DNA from: Frateuria soli
Lineage (GTDB): Bacteria; Pseudomonadota; Gammaproteobacteria; Xanthomonadales; Rhodanobacteraceae
Reading direction: 5' to 3'
Assembly: GCF_021117385.1 (NCBI RefSeq)
Contig: NZ_CP088252.1
Coordinates: forward strand, 1,550,001-1,614,000
Length of the DNA stretch: 64,000 bases
In this document: positions 142 through 33,795 of the stretch, in pieces
How positions within the stretch are numbered: position 1 is the first letter of the stretch
How the letters are laid out: each line of letters begins with the position of its first letter
Made by a program: the position numbers and the translations under genes
Notes under the pieces: generated by a model
Databases searched by the model: none
Seen by the model: only the letters and a program-made list of their open reading frames with translations
Told to the model about the DNA's origin: nothing

Positions 142-155
142 TTGATCGTGATCAA
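142..155. promoter_or_regulatory. FNR-type box TTGATCGTGATCAA
   Basis: Perfect palindrome TTGAT-CGTG-ATCAA between the dodecin start (60) and the OsmC stop (175). On the minus strand TAGGGT follows after a 21-bp gap, the geometry of a class II activator site centred near -41.5. The likely target is dodecin. Confidence 0.75.
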
Positions 156-174
156 CTTGGCCGGCCGGAAGCCC

Positions 175-642
175 TCAGCGATCGGCGCGCAGGGGCAAGG
201 CCACGCCCGCCGGATCGAGCACGCGCACGTCGACCTCGACGCCCTGGCGCACGCTGCCGGTAACCACGCAGAAGTCCTCGAACTGCGCCAGCACGCGGTC
301 GAGGTGGTCGAGCGAGTCGGCAGCATCGGCGAGCTGCAGGTCGACCTCGATGCGCGGCACGCGCCAGCGCCCGCCCGCGTTGCGGGCGATGGTCGCGCGC
401 GCCTTCGCGGTCAACGGCGCCGGCGTGTTGCCGAACTTGCGCAGCGCGAACAGCAGGCTGGCCGCCAGGCAGTTGGCGACCGCCGTGGCCAGCAGGCGCG
501 ACGGGTTGGGGCCGTGGCCCTGTCCCAGCGGCGGCGGCTCGTCGGTCGCCAGCTCGCCTATCGCGGTGCCGTCGAAGCGCACGTTGAACTCGTAATCGCC
601 TACCTGGGTCAGGCTGATCTCGACCGTCTGTGCCTCGCTCAC
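175..642 (-). CDS. OsmC family peroxiredoxin-like protein
   Basis: This 155-residue protein is of OsmC/Ohr type: thiol peroxidases that reduce organic or fatty-acid hydroperoxides and may also act on sulfane sulfur. Both redox cysteines are present, Cys58 in AVANCLAASL and Cys125 in FEDFCVVTGSVRQG. The start is GTG at 642, overlapping the stop of the RND gene as GTGA, which implies translational coupling. It is the last gene of the sqr operon (sqr, DUF2892, DUF302, adaptor, RND pump, osmC), suggesting clean-up of reactive sulfur or peroxides. Substrate cannot be told from sequence. Confidence 0.85.
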   Translation of the reverse strand: MSEAQTVEISLTQVGDYEFNVRFDGTAIGELATDEPPPLGQGHGPNPSRLLATAVANCLAASLLFALRKFGNTPAPLTAKARATIARNAGGRWRVPRIEVDLQLADAADSLDHLDRVLAQFEDFCVVTGSVRQGVEVDVRVLDPAGVALPLRADR

Positions 643-3600
643 GTCACCTCTCCTTCGATCTGCGGCGCCCGGTGCGCCAGCCATGCGTAGTAAAGCAGCG
701 GGATCACCAGCAGGGTGAGCACCGTGGACACCAGGATGCCGAAGATCAGTGACACCGCCAGGCCCTGGAAGATCGGGTCGTCGATGATGAAGAAACCGCC
801 GACCATCGCGGCCACGCCGGTCAGCACGATCGGCTTGGCACGCACCGCCGCCGCTTCGACCACCGCCTCGCCCAGCGGCCGGCCGGCGGCCAGCGCGTGG
901 TTGATGAAGTCGATCAGCAGGATCGAGTTGCGCACGATGATGCCGGCCAGCGCGATCATGCCGATCATCGAGGTGGCGGTGTACTGCGCGCCGACCAGCG
1001 CATGGCCGGGCATCACGCCGATCACGGTCAGCGGGATCGGCGCCATGATGATCAGCGGCACCAGGTAGCTCCTGAACTGGCCGACCACCAGCAGGTAGAT
1101 CAGCAGCAGGCCGACCGAGTAGGCCAGGCCCATGTCGCGGAAGGTCTCGTAGGTGATCTGCCATTCGCCGTCCCACTTCACCGAGGGCGCGCTGGTGTCC
1201 GGTGGCTGCGCGATGAAGTGCTGGCCCAGCCGCGCACCGGCGACGTCGTGCTCGCGCAGGGTGCCGACCAGGCTGAACATGCCGTACAGCGGGCTGTCGG
1301 TGGCGCCGGCATCGTCGCCGGTAACGTAGGCGTAGGGCAGCAGGTCCTTGTGGTAGATCGCCTGCTCCCAGCTGGCCGGGCGCACGCTCACCACTTCGGA
1401 CAGCGGCACCAGCGCGCCGTTGCGGGCACGCACTTCCAGTGCCAGCAACTGCGCCAGCGAGGCCTGGTCGCCGGCCGGCAGGCGCAGGCGCACCGGCACG
1501 GCGTAACGCGCGTTGCCGTCCATCAGGTAGGTGGCGTCCTCGCCGGAAAGCGCGGTGCGCAAGGCCTGCGCGATGCCGGCCTGGTCCAGGCCCAGCCGTG
1601 CGGCACGCTCGCGGTCGACCACCATCACTTCGCGCGGCGCGGCGTCCTCGACGCTGGAATCGACATCGACCACGTCCGGGTTGGCCTTGAAGCGACGCTC
1701 CAGTGCCAGCGCGGTGCGCCGCACCGTGTCGTAGTCCGGTCCGTAGACCTCGGCCACGATGGGTGCGAGCACGGGCGGGCCGGGTGGCACTTCGACGATC
1801 TTCACCGAGGCACCGTGGCGCGCGCCGATCTTCGCCAGCTCGGGCCGGATCGCCAGCGCGATGGCATGGCTCTGGCGGTCGCGCAGCGCCTTGTCCACCA
1901 GGTTCACCTGCAGGTCGCCGACGTTGGCGCCGCCGCGCAGGTAGTACTGGCGCACTAGCCCGTTGAAGGTGATCGGGGCTGCGGTGCCGGCGTAGCCCTG
2001 CCAGTTGGCCACTTCCGGCAGCGTGGCCACGGCCTGGGCCAGCTCGCCGAGCACGCGGTTGGTGCGCTCCAGCGTGCTGCCCTCGGGCATGTCCACGACC
2101 ACCTGGAATTCGGACTTGTTGTCGAACGGCAGCATCTTGAGGACTACCGCCTTGACCACCACCAGCCCGACCGCCGCCAGCACCAGCACGCCCATCGCGG
2201 CGAACAGCAATCGCCGGCGACGGCGTGCCTTCTCGCCGGCGATGAACGGCGTCATCACCCGCCCGAACAGGCGGTGCAGGCGACTGTCGGCCGGCGCGTG
2301 GGCGCTTTCGCCGCCGTGCCCGTGGTGCCCCAGCAGCTTGAGCGCCAGCCACGGCGTGACGATCAGCGCCACCGCCAGCGACAGCAGCATGCCGGCCGAG
2401 GCGTTGATCGGGATCGGCCGCATGTACGGCCCCATCAGCCCCGACACGAACGCCATCGGCAGCAGCGCGGCGATCACCGTGAAGGTGGCCAGGATGGTCG
2501 GTCCGCCGACCTCGCTCACCGCCTCGGGGATCGCCTCGCGCAGGGTGCGTCCGCCCAGCGCCATGTGCCGGTGGATGTTCTCCACCACCACGATCGCATC
2601 GTCGACCAGGATGCCGATGGAGAAGATCAGCGCGAACAGCGACACGCGGTTGAGGGTGAAGCCCATCGCCCACGACGCGAACAGGGTAAGCATCAGCGTG
2701 ATGATGACCGCAGTGCCGACCACGATCGCCTCGCGCCAGCCCAGCGCGAACAGCACCAGCAGCACCACCGAACCGGTGGCGAAGATGAGCTTGTGGATCA
2801 GCTTGTTCGCCTTGTCGGTGGCGGTCTGGCCGTAGTCGCGGGTCACCGTCACGTGCACGCCGGCGGGGATGGTCACGTTGCGCAGCGCGCCCAGCCGCGC
2901 GGTGATGGCGCTGGTGATGTCGGCGGCATTGGCGCCGGGTTTCTTGGCCACCGCCAGGGTGACCGCCGGGGCATTGCCGGCCGGGCCGCCCTTGCTTGCC
3001 GGCGCGCCGAACCAGACGTAGCGGCTGGGCAGGTCGGCGCCGGCATGGATGCGCGCCACGTCGGACAGGAATACCGGCTGGCCGTGCTTGAGGCCGATCA
3101 CCAGGTTGGCCACGTCGCCGGCATTGGCCAGGAAGCTTCCCGCGGTCACCGGGATGGCGCGGTCGCCGGTCACCCGCTCGCCGGCCTGGGTGACCACGTT
3201 CGCCGCCTTGAGCGCCCCGGCGAGGTCGCCGACCGCCATGCCGTAGGCGGCCAGCCGCGCGGCGTCCAGCTCCACCACCACCGCGCGCGTCGGTGCGCCC
3301 AGCGTGTAGACATCGCGGGTGCCGGGCACGCGCTTCAGATCGGTCTCCAGCGTGTGCGCCACCTCGGCCAGGCGGGTGGGGTTCTGCGCCGGCGCGTCGC
3401 TCCACAAGGTCAGCGCCATCACCGGCACGTCGTCGATGCCCATCGGCCGGATCAACGGCGGCCCGACGCCCAGCCCGGGCGGCACGAAGTCCTGGTTCTG
3501 GAAGACCTGGTTGTACAGCCGCACGATCGCGGCCTGGCGGGGCACGCCGACTTCGAACTCGACCGTCAGCACCGCCATCCCCGGCTGGCTCACCGAATAG

Positions 3601-5354: not shown

Positions 5355-5561
5355 TCAACGGGGGAAGGCGCAGCCGGGCTTGAACCCGAGCCCCTTGAGG
5401 ATCATCGCCAGCGGGCAGAAGCCGGTGAACGAGGACTGCAGCAGGTTGGCGCCGACGAACACGGCCAGCCACAACCAGGCGGGCGACACCCACCAGCCCA
5501 GCCCGACGGACAGCAGCACCATGCTTCCGGCAAAGCCGAGTACGACGCGATCGATGTTCAT
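5355..5561 (-). CDS. DUF2892 (YgaP-like) small membrane protein
   Basis: The product has 68 residues with two hydrophobic segments (VVLGFAGSMVLLSVGLGWWV and WLWLAVFVGANLLQSS) followed by the conserved FTGFCPLAMILKGLGF tail. This matches the C-terminal membrane domain of the thiosulfate sulfurtransferase YgaP, here without a rhodanese domain. The ATG overlaps the sqr stop by 4 bases (ATGA), so it is translated with sqr. Stand-alone copies are common next to sulfide-oxidation genes; the cysteines suggest handling of sulfane sulfur at the membrane, which is inference. Confidence 0.85.
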   Translation of the reverse strand: MNIDRVVLGFAGSMVLLSVGLGWWVSPAWLWLAVFVGANLLQSSFTGFCPLAMILKGLGFKPGCAFPR

Positions 5562-6859
5562 GGAAGGTCTCCCTGGGATGGTTTGACGGGCGGCTTGAGC
5601 CGTTCGATGCCGAGCAGCTTGAGCACGTATTTCTCGTAGACCGGCTCGGTGTTGCCGGTGCGGATCTTGTGCAGGTAGTACTTCTCGAAGGCGAGCTTGG
5701 CCAGGTGTACCCACTTGCCCTCCCTCGCCCAGGTGACGTTGCGCGGCGGGATCTGCGGCAGCGCCACGAAGGCCGCGCCGGTATCGCCCATGTCGGCCAG
5801 GCACACCGCGTTCCAGGTCGCGCGCGCGTCGGCCTGGCGGCCGGCGATCTCGTCGCGCAGGTTGTGCGCGATGGCGGTCACCATCGACTCGATCATGAAG
5901 CCGGTCTTGGGTGCGCCGGTGGGCACGGGGGTGGCCTCCACCGGCGGAATTGCCACGCACACGCCGGCCGCGAAGATGTTGCGGAAGCGCGGGTTGCGCT
6001 GGTGCTCGTCGATCAGGATGAAGCCGCGCGGGTTGGTCAGCCCCTCGATGCCGCGCACCGCGTCCACGCCGGTGAAGGCCGGCAGCAGCATCGCGTAGGC
6101 GAACGGCAATTCGCTCTCGCCCGCTGGCGCGCCCCTGGCGTCGACCTCCTGCAACCGCAGCTTGCCGGCCTCGGCGCCGAGTACCTTGGCACTGGTGATC
6201 CACTTGATCTCGCGCTGGCGAAGCTCCCGCTCCAGCAGGCCCTTCGAATCGCCGACGCCGCCCAGGCCCATGTGGCCGATGTACGGCTCGGGCGTGACAT
6301 AGGTGATCGGCACCCGATCGCGCAGCTTGCGCTTGCGCAGGTCGGAGTCCAGCAACAGCGCGAACTCGTAGGCCGGTCCGAAGCAGCTGGCGCCCGCCGC
6401 CGCGCCGACCACCACCGGACCCGGCGCGGCCAGGAACGCCTGGTAGGCCTCCCAGGCGCGCTGCGCGTGTTCCGCGGTGCAGATCGACTGCGTGTGCCCA
6501 TCCGGGCCCAGCCCGGGTACCTCGTCGAACGCCAGCCGAGGACCGGTGGCGATCACCAGGTAGTCGTAGTCGAGCATCCGGCCGTCGCGCAGTTGCACCC
6601 GGCTCTCGGCCGCCAGCACGTTCCCGGCCGGCACCTCGACGAAGCGGATGTCGTGGTTCGCCATCGGCTCGGCGATGGCGAACCCGATGTCCTCGCGCTT
6701 GCGCGAGCCCAGCGCCAGCCAGGGGTTGGAAGGGGTGAAGTTGAAGCGCGGCCCGTCGCCGACCAGCGTGACGGTGTGCTCCTTGCCGAGCGCGGCGCGG
6801 ATCTCGTAGGCCGCCGCGGTGCCGCCCAGCCCGGCGCCCAGAACGATGATGTTGGCCAT
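5558..6859 (-). CDS. sqr: Sulfide:quinone oxidoreductase
   Basis: This 433-residue FAD enzyme oxidises sulfide to sulfane sulfur and passes electrons to the quinone pool at the inner membrane. It has an N-terminal dinucleotide fold (IIVLGAGLGGTAAAYEI). Three cysteines sit where type I SQR (Acidithiobacillus) has its catalytic ones: Cys127 in QSICTAEHA, Cys159 in GASCFGPAYEF and Cys353 in WNAVCLADMGD. The GVCVAIPPVE and PKTGFMIESM segments are also characteristic. It heads a six-gene operon that also encodes DUF2892, DUF302, an RND pump and OsmC. Upstream lie an FNR-type box and a nested AT-rich palindrome shared with a divergent persulfide-sensor-like ArsR gene, so both oxygen status and sulfide may control it. 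Confidence 0.93.
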   Translation of the reverse strand: MANIIVLGAGLGGTAAAYEIRAALGKEHTVTLVGDGPRFNFTPSNPWLALGSRKREDIGFAIAEPMANHDIRFVEVPAGNVLAAESRVQLRDGRMLDYDYLVIATGPRLAFDEVPGLGPDGHTQSICTAEHAQRAWEAYQAFLAAPGPVVVGAAAGASCFGPAYEFALLLDSDLRKRKLRDRVPITYVTPEPYIGHMGLGGVGDSKGLLERELRQREIKWITSAKVLGAEAGKLRLQEVDARGAPAGESELPFAYAMLLPAFTGVDAVRGIEGLTNPRGFILIDEHQRNPRFRNIFAAGVCVAIPPVEATPVPTGAPKTGFMIESMVTAIAHNLRDEIAGRQADARATWNAVCLADMGDTGAAFVALPQIPPRNVTWAREGKWVHLAKLAFEKYYLHKIRTGNTEPVYEKYVLKLLGIERLKPPVKPSQGDLP

Positions 6860-6915: not shown

Positions 6916-6929
6916 TTGACCGGCATCAA
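6916..6929. promoter_or_regulatory. FNR-type box TTGACCGGCATCAA
   Basis: TTGAC-CGGC-ATCAA is centred 63 bp before the sqr start (6859) and lies just inside the ArsR-type operator at 6939-6974. The likely target is the sqr operon. I see no convincing -10 at the 21-bp spacing found at other boxes. Confidence 0.7.
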
Positions 6930-6998: not shown

Positions 6999-7376
6999 AT
7001 GCCGACCACCCCGTCCATCGACCTTTCCGCCATGCACGCCCGCGCCGACGAGGCCGCGCGCCTGCTCAAGGCATTGGGGAATCCACAGCGCCTGCGGGTG
7101 CTGTGCCTGCTGGTGGGCGGCGAGTTGACGGTGGGACAGATCCACAAGGCGCTGCCGGACCTCAGCCAGTCCGCGCTTTCGCAGCACCTGGCGCGGCTGC
7201 GCGAGGAAGGCCTGGTGGGCACGCGGCGCGAGGCGCAATCGATCCATTACGCGCTCGAGCCGGGCCCCGCGCAGGCGGTGATCGAAACGCTGCACGGCGC
7301 CTATTGTTCGCCCCCGACCGCTCGCCGTGGCCGTCGAAGCAGGCCGCCGCGGCAGGATCGCGACGGCGGCGATTGA
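6999..7376 (+). CDS. ArsR-family repressor, BigR/SqrR-like persulfide sensor
   Basis: This 125-residue winged-helix protein contains the ArsR core LLKALGNPQRLRVLCLLVGG and the recognition helix SQSALSQHLARLREEGL. Cys36 and Cys103 are separated by almost the same distance as the two cysteines of BigR/SqrR, which form a tetrasulfide bridge with persulfides and release DNA. It is transcribed divergently from sqr across a palindromic operator, as expected for a sulfide-responsive switch. The C-terminal tail is Arg-rich and probably disordered. Arsenic or metal sensing is less likely because no CxC motif is seen. The sensor assignment is inference from cysteine spacing and context. Confidence 0.8.
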   Translation: MPTTPSIDLSAMHARADEAARLLKALGNPQRLRVLCLLVGGELTVGQIHKALPDLSQSALSQHLARLREEGLVGTRREAQSIHYALEPGPAQAVIETLHGAYCSPPTARRGRRSRPPRQDRDGGD

Positions 7377-7386
7377 TCCCGGTCAA
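7373..7386. promoter_or_regulatory. FNR-type box TTGATCCCGGTCAA
   Basis: TTGAT-CCCG-GTCAA overlaps the stop codon of the arsR-type gene and is centred 63 bp before the universal stress gene at 7443. A CATGCT hexamer follows 19 bp after the box. Confidence 0.65.
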
Positions 7387-7442: not shown

Positions 7443-8234
7443 ATGACCGAACTGATCGTTACCGTCGCCGAACCCGAACGCGAGGCGCCCTTGCTGGACT
7501 ATGCGTTTTCGCTGGCCCGCCAGTGGCACGCCTGGGTCACCGGGCTGTGCGTGATCCCCATCGATGCGGTGGTGATGGCGCTGCCCGATGGCGCCGGCAT
7601 CCTGGCGGCGGAACAGCGCGATGCGCTGGCCGACGAGGCGTGGTGGCAGCAGCGCTGCAAGGCGGCCGCCGTCGGTGGGAGCTGGGAGGTGGTCTGCGGC
7701 GTGTACCGCAAGGTGGTGGCCGAGCGCGCCAGCCTGGCTGACCTGGTCATCGGGCGGCTGCCCGGCTGGCCGGTCAGCCTGCAGGACGCCTCGCGCCGGC
7801 TGGCCGAATCGCTGGTGCACGGTGGCTGTCCGATCATCCTGGTACCGGACGACTGGGTCGCGCGGCCGGCGATCGGCCACGTGCTGCTTGCCTGGAACGG
7901 CAGCGCGCCGGCGGCCCGTGCCGCGCGCGCCGCACTGCCGCTGTTGCGCATGGCCGACCGGGTGACCGTCCTCGACGGCACGCACCGCCCCGGGGCCAGG
8001 ATCGCCGCTCCGCTGCGCGAGTGGCTGGCCCGGCAGGGCGTGCCATGCGAGTGGCGGCCGTTCGAGGCCCGCGGCGACGTGGGCGAAGCCATTCATCACG
8101 AAGCCGCCGGCCTCGGCGTCGACCTGCTGGTGCAAGGCGCCTGGGGCCGCCGTCGCGCCAGCGAGCGACTGCTCGGCGGCGCCACCCGTCATTCATTGCG
8201 GCACAGCCGCCTGCCGCTGCTGCTCGCGCCCTGA
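7443..8234 (+). CDS. Universal stress protein, tandem-domain type
   Basis: This 263-residue UspA-family protein has two repeats. The N-terminal half is degenerate. The second domain begins near HVLLAWNGSAPAARAARAAL and ends with the nucleotide-binding loop GAWGRRRASERLLGGAT, close to the G-x2-G-x9-G-(S/T) consensus. Such proteins typically bind ATP or AMP and support survival under starvation or anoxia. An FNR-type box lies upstream, and the GGGAAG ribosome-binding site supports the ATG at 7443. It appears to be transcribed alone, convergent with the PRPP synthetase-like gene. Confidence 0.88.
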   Translation: MTELIVTVAEPEREAPLLDYAFSLARQWHAWVTGLCVIPIDAVVMALPDGAGILAAEQRDALADEAWWQQRCKAAAVGGSWEVVCGVYRKVVAERASLADLVIGRLPGWPVSLQDASRRLAESLVHGGCPIILVPDDWVARPAIGHVLLAWNGSAPAARAARAALPLLRMADRVTVLDGTHRPGARIAAPLREWLARQGVPCEWRPFEARGDVGEAIHHEAAGLGVDLLVQGAWGRRRASERLLGGATRHSLRHSRLPLLLAP

Positions 8235-8267: not shown

Positions 8268-9161
8268 TCAGCCGGCCTTCGCGCTGGTCGCCACCATGGC
8301 CTGGGCGACGCGGGCGCTGACGTCGATCGCCGCCAGCTCACCCGGCACGGTGTTGCTTGCGACCAGCCGGGCGATGCCGGCGCCGTGCAGTCCTTCCAGC
8401 GAGCGGCGGCCGAGCAGGCCGTGCACCACGACGGCCACCGGCGCCGGCTGCGGCAGTTGTTCGCGCAGGCCCCGGGCGGTATCGATCAGCGTGTGCCCGG
8501 AGGCGGCGATGTCGTCCAGCAGCACCGGCGTGTGCCCGCGCCACCGCGCCAGCGACGGCAGCCGCACGCTGACGTCACGGTCGCCGCGCCGCTGCTTGTG
8601 CGCTACCACGCACGGCGCACCCAGCGCATCGGCGACCGCCTGCACCCACTGTGCGCTCTCTCCGTCCGGACCGACCAGCAGCGGCGCGCGCACGTTCGCG
8701 CGGATCCATGCCGCCAGCTCCGGCGCGGCGTGGACGACCGTGGTGCGGCAGGCGAATACCTCGGCCAGGTCGTGGATGCGGTGCAGGTGCGGGTCGACCG
8801 TCACCACCCAGTCGAACGCGTTGCCGAGCAAGCCGCCGATGACCCGCGCGGAGACCGCCTCGCCCGGATGGAAGCGCACGTCCTGGCGCATGTAGGCCAG
8901 GTACGGCGCGACCAGCCCCACCTGCGTCGCGCCCAGTTCGCGCGCGGTGGCCGCGGCGGCCAGCAGCGGGAACAGCTTGGCGTCGGGGCGCGGCAGCGAA
9001 CACACCAGCGCGACGGCGCCACGCGGCGGCGTGGCCAGTCGCAGCAGCGCTTCGCCGTCGGGGAAGCGGTGCAATTCCAGCTGGCCGCGCTGCCAGCCGG
9101 CGTGCCGGCACAGCGCGCGGGCGAAGGCGGCGTTGCCCGGCAACGCGTACAGAAGGCTCAT
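8268..9161 (-). CDS. Ribose-phosphate pyrophosphokinase-like protein (PRPP synthetase family)
   Basis: This 297-residue protein has the type I phosphoribosyltransferase fold of PRPP synthetases. It shows ELHRFPDGE near the N-terminus, the YMRQDVRFHPGEAVS flexible loop, VDPHLHR for metal binding, and PVLLDDIAASGHT, which is the PRPP/ribose-phosphate loop. It is shorter than canonical Prs and is the paralogue usually found next to thymidine-phosphorylase-like genes. Its start overlaps the stop of that gene by 4 bases. With AMP available the enzyme could run in either direction (R5P + ATP = PRPP + AMP); the direction used here is unknown. Confidence 0.85.
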   Translation of the reverse strand: MSLLYALPGNAAFARALCRHAGWQRGQLELHRFPDGEALLRLATPPRGAVALVCSLPRPDAKLFPLLAAAATARELGATQVGLVAPYLAYMRQDVRFHPGEAVSARVIGGLLGNAFDWVVTVDPHLHRIHDLAEVFACRTTVVHAAPELAAWIRANVRAPLLVGPDGESAQWVQAVADALGAPCVVAHKQRRGDRDVSVRLPSLARWRGHTPVLLDDIAASGHTLIDTARGLREQLPQPAPVAVVVHGLLGRRSLEGLHGAGIARLVASNTVPGELAAIDVSARVAQAMVATSAKAG

Positions 9162-10693
9162 GGGCCGGTTCCGAGGCGGACGATGTCCGGATGGCGAGAG
9201 ACGTATTCCATGGCGTAACCAAGTTCGCCCGGGCTCTGCGCATGCAGGGTGAAGAGCGGCTGGCCGGCGACCACCGGATCGCCCACGCGCACGTCGACCA
9301 TCAGCCCCGCCAGCGGTGAGAGAGGCGCGCCCGCGAGCTTGGCCGCCTGCGCCAGCCGGCGGTTGTCGATCGACTCGACCCGGCCAGCGCCGGCCGCCTT
9401 CACCGGATGGCGATGGGGCGCGACGCCAGGCGTGCGAAGGCCGCCCTGTGCCTCGCAGATAGCCTGGAACTGGCGCCACGCGCGGCCGGAATCCAGGCAT
9501 TCGCGCGCCGCCGCGCGCGCGTCCGTGCCCGCGCCCTGCCCGCCTGCCTCGATCACCGCCGCGGCGAGCGCGAGGGCGCGCTCGCGCAGGTCCTGCGGTT
9601 GCGTCGGCCGGTTCTCGAGCACCGCCAGCACGTCGTGTGCCTCCAGCGCGGGCCCGACGCCGCGGCCGACCGGTTGCAGCCCGTCGGTACGCAGCACCGT
9701 CAGCCCGAGGCCGAAACGCCCGGCCACCGAGCGCAGCATCCGTTCCAGCGTCCGCGCGCGGCGCGCATCGCGTACCTTGGCGGTCGGGCCGACCGGCATG
9801 TCGATCACCACGTGGCTCGAGCCGGCGGCGATCTTCTTGGACAGGATCGAGGCGACCAGTTGTCCGTGGCTGTCGACGTCCAGCGCGCGCTCGATGCGGA
9901 TCAGCGTGTCGTCCACCGGCGCCAGGTTGATCGCCCCGCCCCACACGATGCAGCCGCCGGTGCGTTCGACGGTGCGGCGCATGCGCGCAAGATCCAGGTC
10001 CACCGGCGCGAGCATCGCCATGGTGTCGGCGGTGCCCGCCGGCGAGGTGATCGCGCGCGAGGACGTCTTGGGCATGGTCAGCCCCAGCGCGGTGCAGATG
10101 GCCACCACGATCGGCGTGGTGCGGTTACCCGGCAGCCCGCCGACGCAGTGCTTGTCCACGATGACCGCCCCCGGCCAGTGCAGCCGGGCGCCGCTGTCGA
10201 CCATCGCGCCGGTCAGCGCGACCACTTCCTCCAGCGACAGGTGATCGTTGCTGCAGGCGGCGATGAAGGCGGCCATCTCCACGTTCGAGTAACGCTGCGC
10301 GGCGATGTCCGCGACGACCGCGCGCAGCTCGGTCTCGGTCAGGGTGCGCCCGTACAGCTTGGCGCGCATGCTGGAAAGCGACTCCACGCTCGGCGGGTGG
10401 GCCAGGGTGGCGAACTCGCCCGCCGCCGGCTGCAGCCGCAGCCAGGCCGATTCGGACAGGCCCACCTCGTCCGGTGCCAGCACGTCGCCATGCACGATCG
10501 CCAGCGTCGCCATCAACTGGCGGCTGCCGATGCTCACCTGCAGGCGCGAGTGGGGCCCGAAGCCTTCGCCATGGCAGGCGGGCGACCCCAGCGGAAGGTA
10601 GACCACGTGCTCGCCCCCGGTATCGATGCCGATGCGGCGCGGGCGCAGCCGTTCGCCCGGGAACGGCAGCTCGGGCAGGAAGGCGACGGGCAC
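9158..10693 (-). CDS. Thymidine phosphorylase family protein (possible AMP/nucleotide phosphorylase)
   Basis: This 511-residue protein follows the long-form layout of archaeal AMP phosphorylases, with an extra N-terminal domain of about 90 residues before the DeoA-like core. Core motifs include MRAKLYGRTLTETE, YSNVEMAAFIAA, VDKHCVGGLPGNRTTPI and SSRAITSPAGTADTMAML, followed by a C-terminal domain. Such enzymes cleave nucleosides or NMPs with phosphate, giving the base and ribose-1-phosphate or ribose-1,5-bisphosphate. The start is GTG at 10693, with an AGGAG site overlapping the stop of the CBS gene. It lies in a CBS / phosphorylase / PRPP-synthetase operon, which points to ribose-phosphate salvage. 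Whether it uses NMP or nucleoside is undecided. Confidence 0.85.
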   Translation of the reverse strand: MPVAFLPELPFPGERLRPRRIGIDTGGEHVVYLPLGSPACHGEGFGPHSRLQVSIGSRQLMATLAIVHGDVLAPDEVGLSESAWLRLQPAAGEFATLAHPPSVESLSSMRAKLYGRTLTETELRAVVADIAAQRYSNVEMAAFIAACSNDHLSLEEVVALTGAMVDSGARLHWPGAVIVDKHCVGGLPGNRTTPIVVAICTALGLTMPKTSSRAITSPAGTADTMAMLAPVDLDLARMRRTVERTGGCIVWGGAINLAPVDDTLIRIERALDVDSHGQLVASILSKKIAAGSSHVVIDMPVGPTAKVRDARRARTLERMLRSVAGRFGLGLTVLRTDGLQPVGRGVGPALEAHDVLAVLENRPTQPQDLRERALALAAAVIEAGGQGAGTDARAAARECLDSGRAWRQFQAICEAQGGLRTPGVAPHRHPVKAAGAGRVESIDNRRLAQAAKLAGAPLSPLAGLMVDVRVGDPVVAGQPLFTLHAQSPGELGYAMEYVSRHPDIVRLGTGP

Positions 10694-10702
10694 GTGTGGC
10701 TC

Positions 10703-11149
10703 CTAGCTGTAGGCGCGATCGAGCATCGGCTGGACGTTGAGTGTCTGGTTGACCCGGTCGGCCAGCTCGGTCAGCGCCACCAGTACGTCGTCGGTGCTGA
10801 CGATGCCCACCAGCGTGCCGGTCGCATCGATCAATGGAAGACGGCGCACGCCGCGCTGATGCATGGTGTCGACGACCTCGTCGATCGCCGCTTCCGGCCG
10901 GCAGCTCAGCAGCGGCGCGGACATCACGCATTCGAGCGTCGTCGTGGCCGGGTCGAAATGCGCGGCGACGCAGCGGATGACCAGGTCGCGATCGGTCACG
11001 ATGCCGACCGGCTCCGGATGGTCGTCCTGCTCGCGGATCACCACCAGGCAGCCCGCCTGGTGCCTGCGCATGATGCCAGCGGCCTCGATCACCGTCACCG
11101 AGGCGCCTGCCTGGATGACCCGGCGGGTACCGATGTCGATGGCGCGCAT
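10703..11149 (-). CDS. CBS-pair domain protein
   Basis: The 148 residues consist essentially of two CBS motifs: VIEAAGIMRRHQAGCLVV followed by GIVTDRDLVIRCV, then VVDTMHQRGVRRLPLID followed by GIVSTDDVLVALTEL. Stand-alone CBS pairs bind adenosine nucleotides and act as energy-status sensors; the mycobacterial homologue Hrp1 belongs to the DosR dormancy regulon. A strong AAGGAGA site precedes the ATG. It is the first gene of an operon with the phosphorylase (9-bp gap) and the PRPP synthetase-like gene, and a perfect FNR-type box lies 68 bp upstream. Confidence 0.9.
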   Translation of the reverse strand: MRAIDIGTRRVIQAGASVTVIEAAGIMRRHQAGCLVVIREQDDHPEPVGIVTDRDLVIRCVAAHFDPATTTLECVMSAPLLSCRPEAAIDEVVDTMHQRGVRRLPLIDATGTLVGIVSTDDVLVALTELADRVNQTLNVQPMLDRAYS

Positions 11150-12849: not shown

Positions 12850-12863
12850 TTGACGAGGATCAA
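12850..12863. promoter_or_regulatory. FNR-type box TTGACGAGGATCAA
   Basis: TTGAC-GAGG-ATCAA is centred 60 bp before the universal stress gene on the minus strand (12796). A CAGGCT hexamer follows at 22 bp. Confidence 0.72.
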
Positions 12864-22908: not shown

Positions 22909-23481
22909 TCACAAGGCCAGCGTATGGACGACCTGGGTCGGGTCGCCCGGATCGAGCGAACGCTTGAAGCCCAGATAGGCCGCGAGCTCCTGCATGGCGT
23001 AGTTGTCGGACGAATCGACCGAATACATCTGCTTGAACCCGTGCTGGCGGGCCACGTCGATGAGGTGGCGCATGAGCACCACGGCCAGCCCGCGATGGCG
23101 CCAGTGCTCGGACACGGTGACCGCGCATTCGCAGCGTGTCTGGTCGCCATTGGCGCTGTAGCGGCTGACGCCGACCTCGCGCAGCTGGCCGTCCTCGTGC
23201 GCCAGGGCGACGAAGGCCATGCGCTTGTCGTAGTCGACGTCCATGAGCTGGTCGATCAGTTCCGGGGTGGCCTCGCGGAAGCTGCACATGAAGCGCAGGC
23301 GCTTGGCGTCCGGCGACATGGCCCGCACGAAGTCCTCTTCGCGCTCGCGGTCTTCCGGACGCAGCGGGCGGATCAGCACTACGGTGCCGTCGCGCAGGTG
23401 GTCGATCCAGTGGGTCCCCTCCAGCAACACGGGAGGGCTGGCCTGGGCGGAAGACGTGACCCCGGTAGGTAGTGTGGCCAT
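22909..23481 (-). CDS. GNAT acetyltransferase resembling the Pat/YfiQ catalytic domain
   Basis: This 190-residue GNAT protein contains VVLIRPLRPEDREREEDFV, FREATPELIDQLMDVDYDKRMAFVAL and the acetyl-CoA loop region EHWRHRGLAVVLMRHLI. This is most like the C-terminal domain of protein lysine acetyltransferase Pat, here without the large acyl-CoA-synthetase-like part. ATG 23481 is preferred over 23520 because the FNR-type box at 23547-23560 would leave no room for a promoter before the longer start. It is followed by a universal stress gene, a plausible acetylation substrate. Confidence 0.8.
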   Translation of the reverse strand: MATLPTGVTSSAQASPPVLLEGTHWIDHLRDGTVVLIRPLRPEDREREEDFVRAMSPDAKRLRFMCSFREATPELIDQLMDVDYDKRMAFVALAHEDGQLREVGVSRYSANGDQTRCECAVTVSEHWRHRGLAVVLMRHLIDVARQHGFKQMYSVDSSDNYAMQELAAYLGFKRSLDPGDPTQVVHTLAL

Positions 23482-23546: not shown

Positions 23547-23560
23547 TTGATCCTCATCAA
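23547..23560. promoter_or_regulatory. FNR-type box TTGATCCTCATCAA
   Basis: Perfect TTGAT-CCTC-ATCAA, centred 72 bp before the acetyltransferase start (23481, minus strand). It overlaps the last codon and stop of the upstream P-type ATPase gene, so the site sits partly in coding sequence. Confidence 0.72.
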
Positions 23561-26563: not shown

Positions 26564-27334
26564 TCAGCGGCAGGTGTAGCCGCCGTCTATGACCAGTTCG
26601 CTGCCGGTGACGAACTTGGCTTCGTCGCTGGCCAGGTAGACCACGCCCCAGGCGATGTCGTCGGGCTCGCCCATGTGGCCCAGCGGATGCAGCGCGTCGG
26701 TCTTGCGGCGCTGCTCGTCGAGGTCGCCGCCGTGGCCGGACAGGAACCCGTGCACCATCGGCGTCCAGATGAAGCCCGGGTGCACCGAATTGACCCGGAT
26801 GCCCTCGCGCGCGTACAGCAGCGCATCGGTCTTGCTCATCAGCCGCACGGCGCCCTTGGAGGCGTGGTATGGCGGCACGTCGGCCGCGCCGATGAGGCCG
26901 TAGATCGAGGACAGGTTGACGATGCTGCCGCCGCCGGCGCGGCGCATGTGCGCGATCGCATGCTTGGTGCAGAAGAACACGCCCTTGACGTTGACCGCCT
27001 GGACGAGGTCCCACTCTTCCTCGGTCAATTCGTCCGTGGGCTTGTCCGCCCCGGCGATGCCGGCATTGTTGACCAGGACGTCCAGCCGTCCGAACAGGCT
27101 CGCGACCTCGTCGAAGACCTTGGCCACCTCGGCCTCGCGGGTGACGTCGGCGTGGAAATAGCGGGCCTGCCTGCCCAGCCCGACCAGGTCGCCGGCCAGC
27201 TCGCGGCCGGCGTCGTCCGCGCGGTCGAGGATCGCCACGCGGGCGCCCTCCTCCGCCATGCGTCGCGCACAGGCGGCGCCTATGCCGACGGCGCCGCCGG
27301 TCACGATGACGGCCTTGTCCTGGAGCCTGTTCAT
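26564..27334 (-). CDS. Short-chain dehydrogenase/reductase
   Basis: This 256-residue classical SDR has the cofactor motif VTGGAVGIGAA, NNAG at LVNNAGIAG, catalytic Ser in IVNLSSIYGL, the YHASK active-site Tyr/Lys, and HPGFIWTPM. Asp in AILDRAD after strand two suggests NAD(H). It resembles glucose/3-oxoacyl-type dehydrogenases; the substrate is not predictable. ATG 27334 is chosen; an in-frame GTG nine bases upstream is possible. It heads an operon with the single-domain USP and the P-type ATPase, under an FNR-type box 66 bp upstream. Confidence 0.87.
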   Translation of the reverse strand: MNRLQDKAVIVTGGAVGIGAACARRMAEEGARVAILDRADDAGRELAGDLVGLGRQARYFHADVTREAEVAKVFDEVASLFGRLDVLVNNAGIAGADKPTDELTEEEWDLVQAVNVKGVFFCTKHAIAHMRRAGGGSIVNLSSIYGLIGAADVPPYHASKGAVRLMSKTDALLYAREGIRVNSVHPGFIWTPMVHGFLSGHGGDLDEQRRKTDALHPLGHMGEPDDIAWGVVYLASDEAKFVTGSELVIDGGYTCR

Positions 27335-27393: not shown

Positions 27394-27407
27394 TTGACTC
27401 TGGTCAA
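27394..27407. promoter_or_regulatory. FNR-type box TTGACTCTGGTCAA
   Basis: TTGAC-TCTG-GTCAA is centred 66 bp before the SDR start (minus strand). TAGGCT on that strand (27367-27372) follows after exactly 21 bp. Confidence 0.76.
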
Positions 27408-27463: not shown

Positions 27464-27477
27464 TTGATCCTGATCAA
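27464..27477. promoter_or_regulatory. FNR-type box TTGATCCTGATCAA
   Basis: Perfect TTGAT-CCTG-ATCAA, centred 59 bp before the plus-strand USP at 27530, the first gene of the phosphoketolase/acetate kinase operon. The -10 is weak; GAGCAT lies 22 bp downstream. Confidence 0.76.
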
Positions 27478-27529: not shown

Positions 27530-28333
27530 ATGTACGAGATGATCATCGACGTCGACCAGATGCGCGAGGACCTCCCCGCCATCCAGCTGGGCCTTGCCGT
27601 CGCGCGGCAGCAGCAGGCCTTCGTGGCGGGCGTGCACATCATCCAGCAGATTCCCTCGGTGACCGCCATCCCCGACGCGCTGGCGATCCTGGAGGCCGAG
27701 GAGGAATCGGCACGCCGGCGCGCGCCGTGGTGGCAGGAGCTGTGTCGCCGCTCCAACGTGGAAGGCGGCTGGGAGGTCTTCCGCGGACCCTACGTCCCCG
27801 TGCTGGCACACCGTTCGCGGATGGCCGACCTGCTCGTATGCAGCGCCCCGGCCGGCAACCAGGATTTTCCCGTGGGGTGGGACAACGTCACGCGCACCCT
27901 GTTCGCCGGCGGCGTGCCGGTGCTGCTGGCGCCGGTCGCCTACGAGGTGCGCGGCGCACCCGCGCGCGTGCTGGTGGCGTGGAACGGCTCGGGCGAATCC
28001 ACCGAGGCCATCCGTGCCGCGCTGCCGCTGCTGCGCAAGGCATCCGAAGTGCACCTGCTCGACGGCTGGCGCCAGACCCTGCCCGGCTTCGGGCCGCCCG
28101 CGCTTGCCGTGGGCGATTGGCTGGCGCGACAGGGCGTCGTCGTGCGGCAGCGGCGTGCATTCGACCCGGCCGAGGACGCCGGCGTGCACCTGCTGCGCGA
28201 GGCCGAGGCGATGCAGGCGGACCTGCTGGTGATGGGCGCGTGGGGACGCTCGCGCCTCACCGAACTGGTGCTCGGCGGTACCACTCATTACGTGCTTGCA
28301 CACACGCACCTGCCGTTGCTGCTGGCGCATTGA
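27530..28333 (+). CDS. Universal stress protein, tandem-domain type
   Basis: This 267-residue protein follows a strong GGAGGGAA site. The N-terminal half includes a segment rich in Glu/Arg ([19 protein letters not shown]) also seen in the USPs at 7443 and 12796. The C-terminal domain has [20 protein letters not shown] and the loop [17 protein letters not shown]. It is the first gene of the operon with phosphoketolase (40-bp gap) and acetate kinase, under a perfect FNR-type box. Confidence 0.88.
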
Positions 28334-28373: not shown

Positions 28374-30791
28374 ATGTTCACCGACGACCCAGCACGAGCC
28401 CCGGAGCCTGCCATGCCGATGCCGCTGTCGGACGAACTGCTGGGGCGGATGGATGCCTACTGGCGCGCGTCCAACTACCTCACCGTCGGCCAGATCTACC
28501 TGCAGGACAACCCGCTGCTGGAAGTGCCGCTGGAGCGCCGCCACATCAAGCCGCGGCTGCTCGGGCACTGGGGCACCACCAGTGGGCTGAACTTCCTGTA
28601 CGTGCACCTGAACCGGCTGATCAAGGCACACGACCTGGACATGGTCTACGTGATCGGCCCGGGGCACGGGGGCCCCGGGCTGGTCGCGCAGTCGTACCTG
28701 GAGGGCACCTACACCGAGTTCTATCCGGACATCGAGCGCGACAGCAACGGCATGCGCCGGCTGTTCCGCCAGTTCTCCTGGCCCTACGGCGTACCCAGCC
28801 ACGTCGCGCCGGAGACGCCCGGCTCGATCCATGAGGGCGGCGAGCTCGGCTACTCGCTGGCGCATGCCTTCGGCGCGGCGTTCGACAATCCCGACCTCGT
28901 CGTCGCCTGCATCGTGGGCGACGGCGAGGCGGAGACCGGCGCGCTGGCGACGAGCTGGCACTCGAACAAGTTCCTCGATCCGGCACGCGACGGCGCGGTG
29001 CTGCCGATCCTGCACCTCAACGGGTACAAGATCGCCAACCCGACGCTGCTCGCGCGCATCACGCCGGAGGAGCTGGAGTCTCTGTTCCGCGGCTACGGCT
29101 ACGAGCCGTTGCTGGTCGAGGGCGACGATCCGGCCACCGTGCACCAGCAACTGGCCGCCGCGCTGGACCGCGCGCTCGCGCGCATCGGCGAGATCCAGCG
29201 TACCGCCCGCGCCAGCATGGACCGCCCGCCGGAGCGGCCGCGCTGGCCGATGATCGTGTTCCGCACGCCCAAGGGCTGGACCGGTCCGAAGGTGGTCGAC
29301 GGCCTGCCGGTGGAAGGCACCTGGCGCGCCCACCAGGTGCCGCTGAAGGATTTCGACAAGCCCGGGCACGTCAAGCTGCTCGAGGACTGGCTGTTGAGCT
29401 ACCGCCCGCGCGAGCTGTTCGACGCCGAGGGCCGCCTGAAGCCTGAGCTGGCCGAACTCGCGCCGACCGGGCGCCGCCGCATGGGCGCCAACCCGCACGC
29501 CAACGGCGGCATGCTGCTGCAGCCGCTCACCCTGCCCCGCTTCCGCGATCACGCGGTGGACGTGCCCTCGCCCGGCGCGGTGGAAATGGAATCCACGCGC
29601 GCACTCGGCAAGTACCTGCGCGAGGTGATGCGGCTGAACGCCTCGGCACGCAACTTCCGCCTGTTCGGCCCGGACGAGACCGCCTCCAACCGGCTGCAGG
29701 ACGTGTTCGAGGCGACATCCAAGACCTGGATGGCGGCGATCGAGCCGGTGGACGTGAACCTGGCGCCGGAAGGGCGCGTGATGGAGGTGCTGAGCGAGCA
29801 CCTGTGCCAGGGCTGGCTGGAGGGCTACCTGCTGACCGGCCGGCACGGGTTGTTCTCGTGCTACGAGGCGTTCATCCACATCATCGACTCGATGTTCAAC
29901 CAGCACGCCAAGTGGCTCAAGACCACGCGCCACATTCCCTGGCGCGTGCCGATCGCCTCGCTCAACTACCTGCTCAGCTCGCACGTGTGGCGGCAGGACC
30001 ACAACGGCTTCTCGCACCAGGACCCGGGCTTCCTCGACCACGTCGCCAACAAGAAGGCTGACGTGGTGCGCATCTACCTGCCGCCGGATGCCAACTGCCT
30101 GCTGTCGATCGCCGACCACTGCCTGCGCAGCCGCAATTACGTCAACGTGATCGTGGCCGGCAAGCAGCCGGCTCCGCAGTGGCTGGACATCGACGCGGCC
30201 GCCCGCCACTGCAGCGTCGGCGCCGGCACCTGGGAATGGGCCGGCAACGCCGGCGACGCCGAACCGGACGTGGTGATGGCCTGCGCCGGCGACGTGCCGA
30301 CGCTGGAAACACTCGCCGCGGTCACCCTGTTGCGCGACTACGCGCCGGACCTGCGCGTGCGCGTGGTCAACGTGGTCGACCTGATGGTGCTGCAGCCACC
30401 CGGCGAGCATCCGCACGCGCTGAGCGACCACGACTTCGATGCGCTGTTCACCCGCGACCGGCCGGTGATCTTCGCCTTCCACGGCTACCCCGGGCTGATC
30501 CACCGCCTCGCCTATCGCCGCCACAATCACGACAACCTGCACGTGCGCGGCTACAAGGAGGAAGGCACCACCACCACGCCGTTCGACATGACGGTGATGA
30601 ACAACCTGGACCGCTACCAGCTCGCGCTGGACGCGATCCTGCGCGTGCCGCGGCTGGCGCACCTCGCCTCGGACGCGACCGACCGCTACTGGACGACCAT
30701 GGAGCGCCACCGCCTGTACATCAGCGAGCACGGCGAGGACCTGCCGGAGGTGGCGCAGTGGCGATGGACGCCCGGGACGCGACCGGCGTGA
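28374..30791 (+). CDS. Phosphoketolase (xylulose-5-phosphate/fructose-6-phosphate)
   Basis: This 805-residue thiamine-diphosphate enzyme cleaves xylulose-5-phosphate, and often fructose-6-phosphate, with phosphate to acetyl phosphate plus glyceraldehyde-3-phosphate or erythrose-4-phosphate. Diagnostic motifs are [37 protein letters not shown], the ThDP site [20 protein letters not shown], the SYEAF-like segment [21 protein letters not shown], and [20 protein letters not shown]. The length fits the family. ATG 28374 is chosen (GGAG upstream); ATG 28413 is a close alternative. Acetate kinase follows directly, so the pair makes ATP from sugar phosphates without respiration. Confidence 0.95.
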
Positions 30792-32047
30792 ACCCGGGCG
30801 GCATCCATGTGCTGGCGGTCAACTGCGGCTCGTCCTCGCTGAAGTTCGGCGTGTTCAGGGCGCGTGGGTGCGAGATGCACCCGCGCGTCACCGGCGAGGC
30901 GCAGGCGATCGGCAGTTCGGCCGGCCTGCTGCGCGTGCGCGACGGCCACGGCGGCGTCACGCTGCACGAGGAGACCGTCGCGATCGCCGACAGCGTGCAG
31001 GCCTTCGGCCGCATCGCGCGGCTGCTTGCGGGCATGGACGTGCCGGCCCCCGACGCGATCGGCCACCGCATCGTGCACGGTGGCCCACGCCTGCGTGCGC
31101 ATGCGCGCATCGACGCGGCGGTCATGGCGCAGCTGGAGGCGGCCAGCATCTTCGCGCCGCTGCACGTGCCGGCGGCGCTGTCGGTGGTCCGCGCCGCGCA
31201 GGCGCGCTACCCGTCGCTGCCGCAGGTGGCCTGCCTGGATACCGCGTTCCATGCCGCGCTGCCCGAGGAGGCGCGCACCCTGCCCATCGATCGCGCGCTG
31301 CTGGCCGAGGGCGTTCAGCGCTACGGTTTTCACGGGCTGTCGTGCGCCTCGATCCTGGCGCAATGGCCGGAGGCGCCGCCACGGCTGGTGATCGCGCACC
31401 TGGGCAGCGGCGCCAGCGTCACCGCGGTACGCGAGGGTCGCTCCGTCGACACCAGCATGGGCATGACGCCCAACGGCGGCGTGGTGATGGCCACCCGCAG
31501 CGGCGACCTGGACCCGGGCGTGCTGACCTGGCTGATCCGCGAGAAGGGCATGGATGCGCGCGCACTCGAACGGCTGGTCGATCACCGCTCCGGGCTGCTC
31601 GGCATCTCGGGCATCAGCGGCGACCTGCGCCGGCTGCGGCAGGTGGAACGCAGGGAACCGGCCGCGAAGCTGGCGATCGGCATGTTCGTGCTCTCGGTGC
31701 GCAAGCAGATCGCCGCCATGACGGCGGTGCTGCACGGCATCGACGCGCTGGTGTTCACCGGCGGCATCGGCGAACACGACGCGCAGGTGCGTGCCGACAT
31801 CTGCGAAGGACTGGGCTGGGCGGGCATCCGCCTGGACGCGTCACGCAATCGCGGCGGCGCGCTGCGCATCGGCACGCGCGACGCCGCCTGCGAGGTGCGC
31901 GTCATGCCCTCGGAGGAAGAGCGCCAGATCTGCCGGCACGTGCACGCGCTGCTGGCCGGCACGGGCGATCAGCGCGAGGACAGCGCCTCGCCGCCATCGC
32001 AGTCGCCCAGCAGCTTGGACGCTCGCAACCAGGCCGGATCGGGATAG
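30764..32047 (+). CDS. ackA: Acetate kinase
   Basis: The product has about 427 residues and converts acetyl phosphate plus ADP to acetate and ATP. Family motifs are visible: [15 protein letters not shown] near the start, [61 protein letters not shown] and [13 protein letters not shown]. The start is uncertain: ATG 30764, or GTG 30758 (better spacing from GGAGG) or GTG 30788 (overlapping the phosphoketolase stop). The last 25 residues are a Ser/Pro/Gln-rich tail encoded over the 3' end of the convergent L,D-transpeptidase gene, an overlap of 79 bp. Confidence 0.93.
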
Positions 32048-32661: not shown

Positions 32662-32714
32662 GGACAGTACGGCAGCCAAAATCCTAGCTTGCCGTGCTGG
32701 GCCTTAATAAATCG

Positions 32715-33710
32715 CTAGGGGTGCTCGGGTGCCGCCTCGGGAGCCGCCTCCCGCGCCTCCAGCAGCGTGCCGTAGGGCACCGGCTGGCCGCCGCGCGCCG
32801 GCAGGTCGGTGACCAGCACCGTGGTGCCGACCGCGATGCGCGCGCGCAACCGGGCACCGAACGCATCGGGCACCTTGAGCTCGCCGGCCAGAGCGCGCGG
32901 CGCGGGCGCCGGCCCCTCGCCGAGCACGCGGTAGGCCGACCACAGTCCGCCGTCCCGTTCCACCGGCTCGGCGGCTTCGGCACGCCGGACATACAGCAGC
33001 ATGCCGCCGACGGTGAAGTCTTCCGGCACGCTCAGCGGCGTGCTCGCGATCAGCTTGCCCGACTGGAGCACGTAGAGCGCCCGGTCGTGCGTGCTCGCCA
33101 CAACGCTCACCGGTCCGCCATCGTCCGGCGGCCACGACGTGTCCGTTCCGCCGGGCTGCAAGGGCTCGGCGCCGCCCAGTCCCAAGGGAGCGATCGCGGC
33201 GGGATGATTGATCTCCGGCGGCGCCACGCGCTGGTCGGCCACCACGACCACGGTGCCGCGCGGGCTCACTTCGAACAGGCGCTCGGCAAAGGTCTCGGGC
33301 AGGCGGATGCAGCCGTGCGAGGCCGGATGGCCCGGCAGCGTGCCGGCATGGAGCGCGAGCCCGTCCCAGGTCAGGCGCTGCATGAATGGCATGGGCGCGT
33401 TGTCGTACAGGTTGGAATAGTGCACGCGCTCCTTCTGCAGGATCGTGTACACCCCGGTCGGCGTCTCGTACCCGCGCCGGCCCGTGCTGATGCGGCTGGC
33501 GCCGATCGCCACGCCGTTGCGGTAGACGTAGATGCGTTGCTCGTCCAGGCTGACCAGCATCACCACCGGCCCGACGGGAGCCAGCTCGGGCCGCCAGAAC
33601 GGCTTGTCCGTGGCCCACCCGGACACCGGCCATGCCAGCAGGGCAAGCACGCTCCAGAGCAGCAGCACGCTAGGGCGAAGGCGCGCAGGGCGCCATCCGG
33701 ACGCGGCCAT
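32715..33710 (-). CDS. L,D-transpeptidase, ErfK/YbiS/YkuD family
   Basis: This 331-residue periplasmic enzyme is preceded by an uncleaved anchor or signal (PSVLLLWSVLALLAWPVSGWA). The YkuD domain contains STGRRGYETPTGVYTILQKE, HAGTLPGHPASHGCIRLP with the catalytic Cys, and FEVSPRGTVVVV. The C-terminal 150 residues form a Pro/Gly linker and a less conserved domain. The ATG at 33755 would lie upstream of the transcription start predicted from the FNR-type box at 33782, so ATG 33710 is preferred. L,D-transpeptidases remodel murein in stationary or dormant cells. Confidence 0.85.
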   Translation of the reverse strand: MAASGWRPARLRPSVLLLWSVLALLAWPVSGWATDKPFWRPELAPVGPVVMLVSLDEQRIYVYRNGVAIGASRISTGRRGYETPTGVYTILQKERVHYSNLYDNAPMPFMQRLTWDGLALHAGTLPGHPASHGCIRLPETFAERLFEVSPRGTVVVVADQRVAPPEINHPAAIAPLGLGGAEPLQPGGTDTSWPPDDGGPVSVVASTHDRALYVLQSGKLIASTPLSVPEDFTVGGMLLYVRRAEAAEPVERDGGLWSAYRVLGEGPAPAPRALAGELKVPDAFGARLRARIAVGTTVLVTDLPARGGQPVPYGTLLEAREAAPEAAPEHP

Positions 33711-33781
33711 TCCAACGATGTGTTCCACGGACGATCTCGCATTGGGCGAAGCCATGCTGGTGTATGCCAGATCGCGTCTGC

Positions 33782-33795
33782 TTGACCAGAATCAA
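33782..33795. promoter_or_regulatory. FNR-type box TTGACCAGAATCAA
   Basis: TTGAC-CAGA-ATCAA lies between the TRIC-family stop (33812) and the L,D-transpeptidase gene on the same strand, 78 bp from ATG 33710. The position fits activation of the two transpeptidase genes. Confidence 0.7.

Follow-up and report, generated by a model that had tools for sequence, protein, structure and literature searches.

The gaps between genes in one half of a 64,000-nucleotide stretch of the Frateuria soli chromosome (assembly GCF_021117385.1, contig NZ_CP088252.1, C1:1550001-1614000; hereafter the window) carry a series of FNR-type boxes, TTGAY-N4-RTCAA, ahead of genes for universal stress proteins (USPs), phosphoketolase, acetate kinase and others. 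Which protein reads these boxes, and what controls the reader? It is natural to assume that FNR boxes imply a [4Fe-4S] oxygen sensor, and our analysis corrects that assumption. We favor, with a probability of roughly 0.77, a model in which a relay resembling the rhizobial hFixL-FxkR-FixK system controls an lxa-like persistence island through a cysteine-less, FixK-like regulator of the FNR type (15806-16528, - strand; here FNRL) and its boxes. The model draws its support from the boxes, the geometry of their promoters, a conserved K-box-like site, the conservation of a three-gene module and several box-bearing relatives in which FNRL appears to be the sole FNR-type protein; the parts that we infer are phosphotransfer, binding itself, operon structure, the direction in which genes are regulated and low oxygen as the cue.

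The first-pass annotation had listed eleven exact boxes, and all eleven are present. Dinucleotide shuffles of the window yield 0.02 on average, and none of 100 shuffles reached eleven. Two one-mismatch copies that it named, at 18536 and 18577, are also real; with one mismatch allowed the window holds 15 sites against 1.21 expected, the two additional ones lying at 59850 and 62736. These two fall in the 34-64 kb half, whose gaps had been described as free of boxes and which does contain zero exact sites. None of the eleven lies wholly within a called gene, the box at 23547-23560 sharing the last four bases of a P-type ATPase open reading frame, and all have their centres 59-129 bp ahead of the nearest start. 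The spacing originally given, 60-90 bp for nearly all, describes seven of them (59-88 bp, centre to nearest start) but not the other four, at 120-129 bp. Scanning the window for tRNA genes and for Rfam families (at gathering thresholds) gave no match.

A pattern scan of the whole genome (one contig, 3.49 Mb) found 37 exact sites versus 3 for a reversed-pattern control, and 21 of the 37 fall within 82 kb, C1:1502081-1583795 (binomial P 5e-25). The cluster spills past the window, extending from 48 kb upstream of it to window position 33795. Over 184 kb of gene-called chromosome, 21 of the 23 exact sites fall at least partly outside genes, although called genes make up 86% of that sequence; the two inside genes are 1535527, one of the clustered 21, and 1485035, outside the cluster. 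Judged from the DNA itself, the regulon is real. The 48 kb box-bearing island upstream, a kinase/response regulator pair at 13013-15797 and a K-box-like site at 16595-16619 go beyond what had been annotated before.

The boxes and their placement recur in relatives. Our comparison set comprised 78 loci, of which 72, from Rhodanobacteraceae and Lysobacteraceae and with FNRL at least 44% identical, were kept; six betaproteobacterial rows (33-35% identity) were removed as paralogues before counting. These 72 loci (1.32 Mb) contain 282 boxes and 1 control match, with at least one box in 62. A second set, the loci of 20 relatives drawn from 64 genomes with FNRL, has 84 boxes around the regulators and 0 control matches; it includes some of the same genomes, and the two sets are not independent. 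Among 554 homologues of island genes, a box stands in the 300 bp upstream of 229 and in the first 300 bp of the gene itself in 1 (homologues of called island genes at E 1e-8, with the alignment starting in the first 40 residues and at least 300 bp to the upstream locus end). By kind, an upstream box was found for 58/115 USP, 28/35 GNAT, 11/13 CBS, 32/71 FNRL, 22/67 response regulator and 0/63 kinase genes. Separately, the box word TTGATCCGTGTCAA occurs in identical copies on several contigs of two genomes (G119 and G141), where it is possibly part of a repeated element.

The distance from box to promoter also appears to be fixed. In 176 distinct segments from box to gene, counting from the box centre, A and T are frequent at recurring positions between +28.5 and +34.5; +29.5, +30.5 and +33.5 are A or T in 57-64% versus 17-35% over +9.5 to +27.5, a comparison made without a separate control set. 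These positions fit a -10 hexamer and would place the box near -41, the position of class-II activators. Of 14 box-gene pairs in the window, 10, including two with one-mismatch boxes, have the word yAnnnT at the -10 offset, versus 5 of 686 at other offsets in the same segments, a count confined to the window and to a word picked after looking at the data. Since a fixed -10 spacing is evidence independent of the box itself, it argues that the boxes are activator sites.

The gene at 15806-16528 had been put forward as the regulator. It probably does read the boxes, but not as an FNR-type oxygen sensor: it has no CX2CX5C motif, and Trp occupies the place of the central cysteine. The N-terminal cysteine cluster is absent from FNRL and from 19 of 19 aligned orthologues, so that FNRL should not sense oxygen as FNR does, and a role as a [4Fe-4S] FNR sensor is ruled out by the missing cluster cysteines. 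The DNA-contacting part is FNR-like. FNRL matches the Crp/Fnr domains PF13545 and PF00027 with an FNR-type recognition helix, HETVTRALSRL, and K-H-E-T-V-[ST]-R is kept in 20 of 20 aligned FNRL sequences. Its sequence matches in the PDB run from FNR (5cvr, 1.6e-36) through FixK2 (1.6e-16) to DNR (2e-7), and it scores 137.9 bits against the NCBIfam Fnr model NF008365, whose cut-off of 228 the genome's own cysteine FNR also misses (195.8). In a tree of terminal regulators the four rhizobial rows cluster together and the FNRL rows are not among them, with long branches and deep forks unresolved; we do not claim membership of FNRL in the FixK family proper.

The genome does encode a canonical cysteine FNR (C1:2697572-2698330), with the same ETVSR helix, and the best-placed alternative, though still an unlikely one, is an ordinary FNR/ANR regulon in which this [4Fe-4S] protein reads the island boxes and FNRL is minor or accessory. 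Boxes near its gene precede hemN-like (2699789) and MBL-fold-like (2695519) genes, and another precedes a cytochrome-c-peroxidase-like gene (1789243), all three named by reading. However, eight relatives have FNRL but no cysteine FNR that we could find, by searching with the cysteine FNR and, in eight of the genomes searched, with PF13545, and all eight still carry boxes. They were retained from 12 family genomes in which FNRL was the only match in an FNR-type search; G014, G166 and G209 were left out for second FNR-like hits (L182-L184) in which the patterns used did not find the helix, and G171 for a second hit with an ETLSR helix. In five (G073, G094, G146, G148 and G184) the only proteins above the PF13545 cut-off are FNRL and one that we take to be Clp-like, whereas G012, G091 and G177 have further proteins above it that are not FNR-like by eye. 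Boxes lie within 10 kb of FNRL in seven of the eight, with a single one beside FNRL, at a contig end, in G091; in G012 that distance holds none, but the 20 kb adjoining it holds eight, of which the closest is about 15 kb from FNRL.

Box number likewise tracks FNRL within genera. Among 197 family genomes, the 64 with FNRL have a median of 21 boxes and the 133 without it a median of 14, presence being set at a best E of at most 8e-57, a gap chosen by eye, and in a genus-stratified permutation the observed difference was reached in 0 of 5000. In the genus to which the window belongs, the two members without FNRL have 2 (an 86% complete genome) and 6 boxes versus 22-37 in the four with it; an FNR-type match, at 6.9e-36, is still present in the member with 6. 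These comparisons show that the boxes are linked with FNRL and its island, and FNRL is probably their reader.

How, then, might FNRL itself be controlled? Its promoter contains a triple direct repeat, GTTAC-N5-GTTAC-N5-GTTGC (16595-16619, - strand). When deduplicated FNRL promoters were searched for paired words, 40 of 43 proved to contain TTAC-N6-TTAC, a direct repeat. GTTAC-N5-GTTAC precedes FNRL in 65 of 69 relatives, with a third GTTRC in 55, versus 0 of 69 for an N4 spacing, 3 for N6 and 0 for a control word; upstream of the response regulator gene it occurs in just 3 of 65. The available text on the rhizobial system gives the K-box of FxkR, ahead of fixK, as GTTACA-N4-GTTACA (PMC7888657, PMC4999443), and the window site read in this way is GTTACC-GACC-GTTACA, which departs from it by one base, in the first half. 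Five loci (L089, L130, L133, L137 and L139) have a further GTTAC triple repeat, at about 13.2-13.8 kb; in the last three (Tahibacter and a Lysobacteraceae metagenome-assembled genome) it stands upstream of the response regulator, which suggests autoregulation there.

The candidate readers of this site are encoded next to FNRL. An OmpR-type, FxkR-like response regulator (13013-13762, + strand), read from an in-frame GTG at 13013, has the Pfam domains Response_reg and Trans_reg_C, which were matched with a shorter form (13073-13762), and is followed by a hFixL-like hybrid histidine kinase with PAS, GAF, HisKA, HATPase and REC domains (13767-15797, + strand). Kinase and regulator lie within 5 kb of FNRL in 62 of the 72 loci, and five of the other ten are on stretches shorter than 11 kb. 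The regulator is 44-52% identical over three rhizobial counterparts, with 52-53% and 49% for the S. medicae and R. ruizarguesonis regulators in the FxkR position, and in a reciprocal search it is the best match of the S. medicae protein in the genome, with OmpR close behind. The gene for that OmpR-like regulator (C1:3082717-3083433; L248) is followed by a sensor-kinase-like open reading frame; the protein is 47% identical to the window regulator, and cross-talk is possible. The kinase is 42-44% identical to three rhizobial kinases over the kinase core and REC. In the PDB its PAS domain matches FixL (1dp6, 3.1e-19) best of the named sensors, second to a multi-sensor kinase (10jx, 1.3e-19), and against the NCBIfam FixL model NF041777 it scores 135 bits versus a cut-off of 850. 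The column of the proximal haem histidine of FixL is kept (63 of 63 letters, 64 loci). Oxygen is likely to be the signal, going by these features.

FNRL could instead be a DNR-like sensor that binds haem or nitric oxide (NO), the two-component system merely setting its level. Genes named by reading as nirK-, qNor- and NnrS-like lie in the island, the first two with one-mismatch boxes, and Cys101 of FNRL is nearly invariant. We consider this improbable, a shade more so than control by the cysteine FNR: the PDB match of FNRL to FNR is far above that to DNR, and a K-box-like site kept in so many relatives is what would be expected if FNRL transcription were the control point.

Under the relay model that we favor, the hybrid PAS-GAF kinase would phosphorylate the OmpR-type regulator, which would bind the three GTTAC-type repeats at 16595-16619 and switch on the adjacent FNRL gene. 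FNRL would then bind TTGAY-N4-RTCAA, about 41 bp upstream of each transcription start, and activate about 20 promoters over about 82 kb. Its predicted targets include the genes for USPs, phosphoketolase and acetate kinase, the CBS and nucleotide phosphorylase proteins, nitroreductase, the P-type ATPase and GNAT, together with sulfide:quinone reductase (SQR)-like, Hsp20-like and FtsH-like proteins and, through one-mismatch boxes, the nirK- and qNor-like genes. The canonical FNR encoded elsewhere may act at these boxes too, as a second input. A prediction of the relay model is that a single promoter governs the entire island set.

Several observations weigh against this account. Ten of the 72 loci are boxless, three of them more than 20 kb long, and the cysteine FNR may itself read the boxes. 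FNRL is 37% identical to FNR versus 28-30% to the proteins in the FixKf position. The column of the distal Arg220 of FixL holds Y (31), Q (21), M, F or another residue but never R, the residue found there in three rhizobial homologues. Identity to the S. medicae regulator is 51% for the genome's OmpR and 53% for the window protein, so that protein similarity alone is a weak guide. GTTAC-N5-GTTAC occurs once in the genome (window 16605-16619, extending to 16595-16619), a count that the reversed control equals and that has no significance by itself; uniqueness in the genome thus means little alone, and the weight rests on conservation. For the triple form with at most two mismatches there are 2 genomic sites and 2 control sites. 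Finally, genomes without an FNR-type match are also above the reversed-pattern control, which is therefore too lenient for whole-genome box totals, and we used such totals solely within genera. That last observation could be taken to favor the view that the boxes are an artefact of composition or repeats where GC content is high, but this explanation is close to untenable given a shuffle expectation of 0.02, promoter placement of 229 versus 1 of 554 and the fixed -10 spacing.

The closest parallel to the proposed relay is hFixL-FxkR-FixKf of R. etli and R. leguminosarum. As described in the available portions of three papers (PMC7888657, PMC4999443, PMC7769827), that system shares with the Frateuria one a hybrid PAS kinase, an OmpR-type regulator, GTTAC-N5-GTTAC before a cysteine-less FNR-type activator and targets of the TTGAT-N4-ATCAA type. 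The Frateuria relay differs in lying on a gammaproteobacterial chromosome, in having GAF after one PAS, in lacking the distal haem Arg, in its third GTTRC repeat, in a terminal regulator that does not group with FixKf, and in an arrangement in which kinase and regulator form one run converging on the activator. Regulator-kinase-activator groups are found within USP/BON/alcohol dehydrogenase (ADH)/acetate kinase or phosphoketolase neighbourhoods on plasmids of Rhizobium, Sinorhizobium, Agrobacterium and Variovorax, and in three plasmid records a candidate relay sits amid USP, BON, ADH, acetate kinase or phosphoketolase genes. In plasmid records the K-box pattern is found between the regulator and FNR-type genes (R. 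ruizarguesonis and S. medicae) or ahead of an FNR-type gene (R. lentis); exact GTTAC-N5-GTTAC was not found in the Agrobacterium record or two Variovorax stretches. We assigned the rhizobial names FxkR, hFixL and FixKf from gene order and the K-box; the records annotate merely a response regulator, a PAS kinase and a Crp/Fnr or helix-turn-helix protein. Two islands on Variovorax megaplasmids (L241 and L245) have the same order, with response regulator and histidine kinase converging on a cysteine-less FNR-type gene, and share USP, BON and ADH genes, with 4 and 5 boxes and a phosphoketolase gene in L245; they differ in that the exact GTTAC-N5-GTTAC was not found.

The boxes and the effector genes have parallels of their own. 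The Frateuria boxes and recognition helix are like those of an FNR/ANR regulon, and class-II placement is common to both; unlike FNR, the Frateuria regulator has no Fe-S cysteines and is apparently switched on by transcription. The DosR/DevR dormancy regulon of Mycobacterium tuberculosis has a regulator and motif unrelated to the Frateuria ones. In it, USPs, an alpha-crystallin-type protein and other related genes answer to a single regulator linked to hypoxia, as the available text of a comparison with lxa notes (PMC6127331). The lxa (low-oxygen-activated) locus of Burkholderia cenocepacia is reported, in the accessible parts of four papers, to comprise about 50 genes with six USPs, to be induced by low oxygen and to serve anoxic persistence, with an Anr/FixK-type regulator, BCAM0049, proposed (PMC6127331, PMC9104464, PMC9733578, PMC3759415). 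Its likeness to the Frateuria island is one of gene kinds, taken from these papers, and no K-box relay is described for lxa in the portions available. Cupriavidus necator (NZ_CP068436.1, 538669-580117; L195) has a similar island of USP, BON, Hsp20 and phosphorylase genes, in which there are five boxes and the phosphorylase gene adjoins one for a cysteine-type FNR; the effector set thus occurs with more than one type of sensor. Among the literature matches listed, we found no report of such a relay in Lysobacterales and recognized no expression study of these genes; the part of PMC8510549 that was available names Xanthomonadales merely as a genome bin.

These likenesses raise the tentative idea, which we rate somewhat below an even chance, that relay and effectors form a transferable low-oxygen persistence package common to alpha-, beta- and gammaproteobacteria, borne by plasmids in the alpha and beta records examined and by the chromosome in Lysobacterales, where it would work as a master switch at a single promoter, with an activator taken from the FNR side and a rebuilt sensor pocket. 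If so, the two-component system of Lysobacterales has one FNR-type gene as its main target, mostly Tyr or Gln replaces Arg220 of FixL in the pocket, and the rhizobial symbiotic relay is one specialized use of an older circuit for anoxic survival. The occurrence of the K-box pattern, regulator, kinase and cysteine-less FNR across Rhodanobacteraceae and Lysobacteraceae, tied to USP/phosphoketolase/acetate kinase islands, offers a concrete model, in environmental bacteria, of the switching of persistence islands of this kind.

The individual boxes, given on the + strand with distances from the box centre, stand ahead of the following genes. Box 1 (142-155) is 88 bp before a dodecin-like gene (60 to -143, - strand, past the window start; named from its translation), and box 2 (6916-6929) is 63 bp before the SQR-like gene (5558-6859, -), the first of a tight same-strand run to 175. 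Box 3 (7373-7386) lies 63 bp before USP_A (7443-8234, +). Boxes 4 (11211-11224) and 5 (11244-11257) precede, by 68 and 70 bp, the CBS/thymidine-phosphorylase-family/phosphoribosyl pyrophosphate (PRPP) synthase run (11149 to 8268, -) and a Host_attach-family gene (11321-11743, +). Box 6 (12850-12863) precedes USP_B (12005-12796, -) by 60 bp and, on the other side, the revised start of the response regulator at 13013 (+) by about 156 bp. The one-mismatch box at 18536-18549 is 84 bp before USP_C (17631-18458, -), the first gene of a USP_C-ADH-FNRL run, and that at 18577-18590 is 74 bp before USP_D (18658-19461, +). Box 7 (21710-21723) stands 126 bp before an OmpA-domain gene (20967-21590, -), followed by nitroreductase and BON genes down to 19562, and box 8 (23547-23560) 123 bp before GNAT (22909-23430, -) and USP_E (22008-22898, -). 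Box 9 (27394-27407) is 162 bp before an SDR gene (26564-27238, -), USP_F and the P-type ATPase gene (to 23557) on one side and 129 bp before USP_G on the other. Box 10 (27464-27477) is 59 bp before USP_G (27530-28333, +), phosphoketolase (28413-30791, +) and acetate kinase (30764-32047, +). Box 11 (33782-33795), 120 bp before a YkuD L,D-transpeptidase gene (32715-33668, -), marks the right edge of the exact-box cluster.

Pfam and NCBIfam support the names of the seven USPs and of the CBS, thymidine-phosphorylase-family, PRPP synthase, nitroreductase, BON, OmpA, GNAT, cation P-type ATPase, SDR, phosphoketolase, acetate kinase and YkuD transpeptidase proteins. The thymidine-phosphorylase-family protein matches an AMP phosphorylase model under its cut-off, and the SQR-like protein owes its label to just two matches, one to a general pyridine-nucleotide-disulphide domain and the other, under the cut-off, to an SQR model. 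Dodecin and, upstream of the window, qNor, NirK, NnrS, Hsp20, FtsH, PolX and glycogen phosphorylase were named by reading translations, without family searches; one-mismatch boxes stand 60 bp before the qNor-like and 62 bp before the NirK-like gene there. The earlier proposal of one low-oxygen or NO response stands as far as an island-wide box regulon is concerned, with low oxygen or NO a plausible cue from the nirK- and qNor-like gene content. Possibly, nucleotide ribose and sugar phosphates would feed phosphoketolase and acetate kinase, yielding acetyl phosphate and ATP with no need of respiration.

After the island, window positions 36145-54014 hold what we guess from translations and gene order to be a trehalose/glycogen block (TreY-, MalQ-, GlgB-, TreS- and GlgE-like) with zero exact boxes. 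The thymidine-phosphorylase-family, PRPP synthase and CBS genes at 8268-11149 form one run; genes of the first two kinds are also paired on Acidovorax and Phenylobacterium plasmids and close together on a Ciceribacter plasmid, and those Acidovorax and Ciceribacter records also contain acetate-kinase- or phosphoketolase-like genes.

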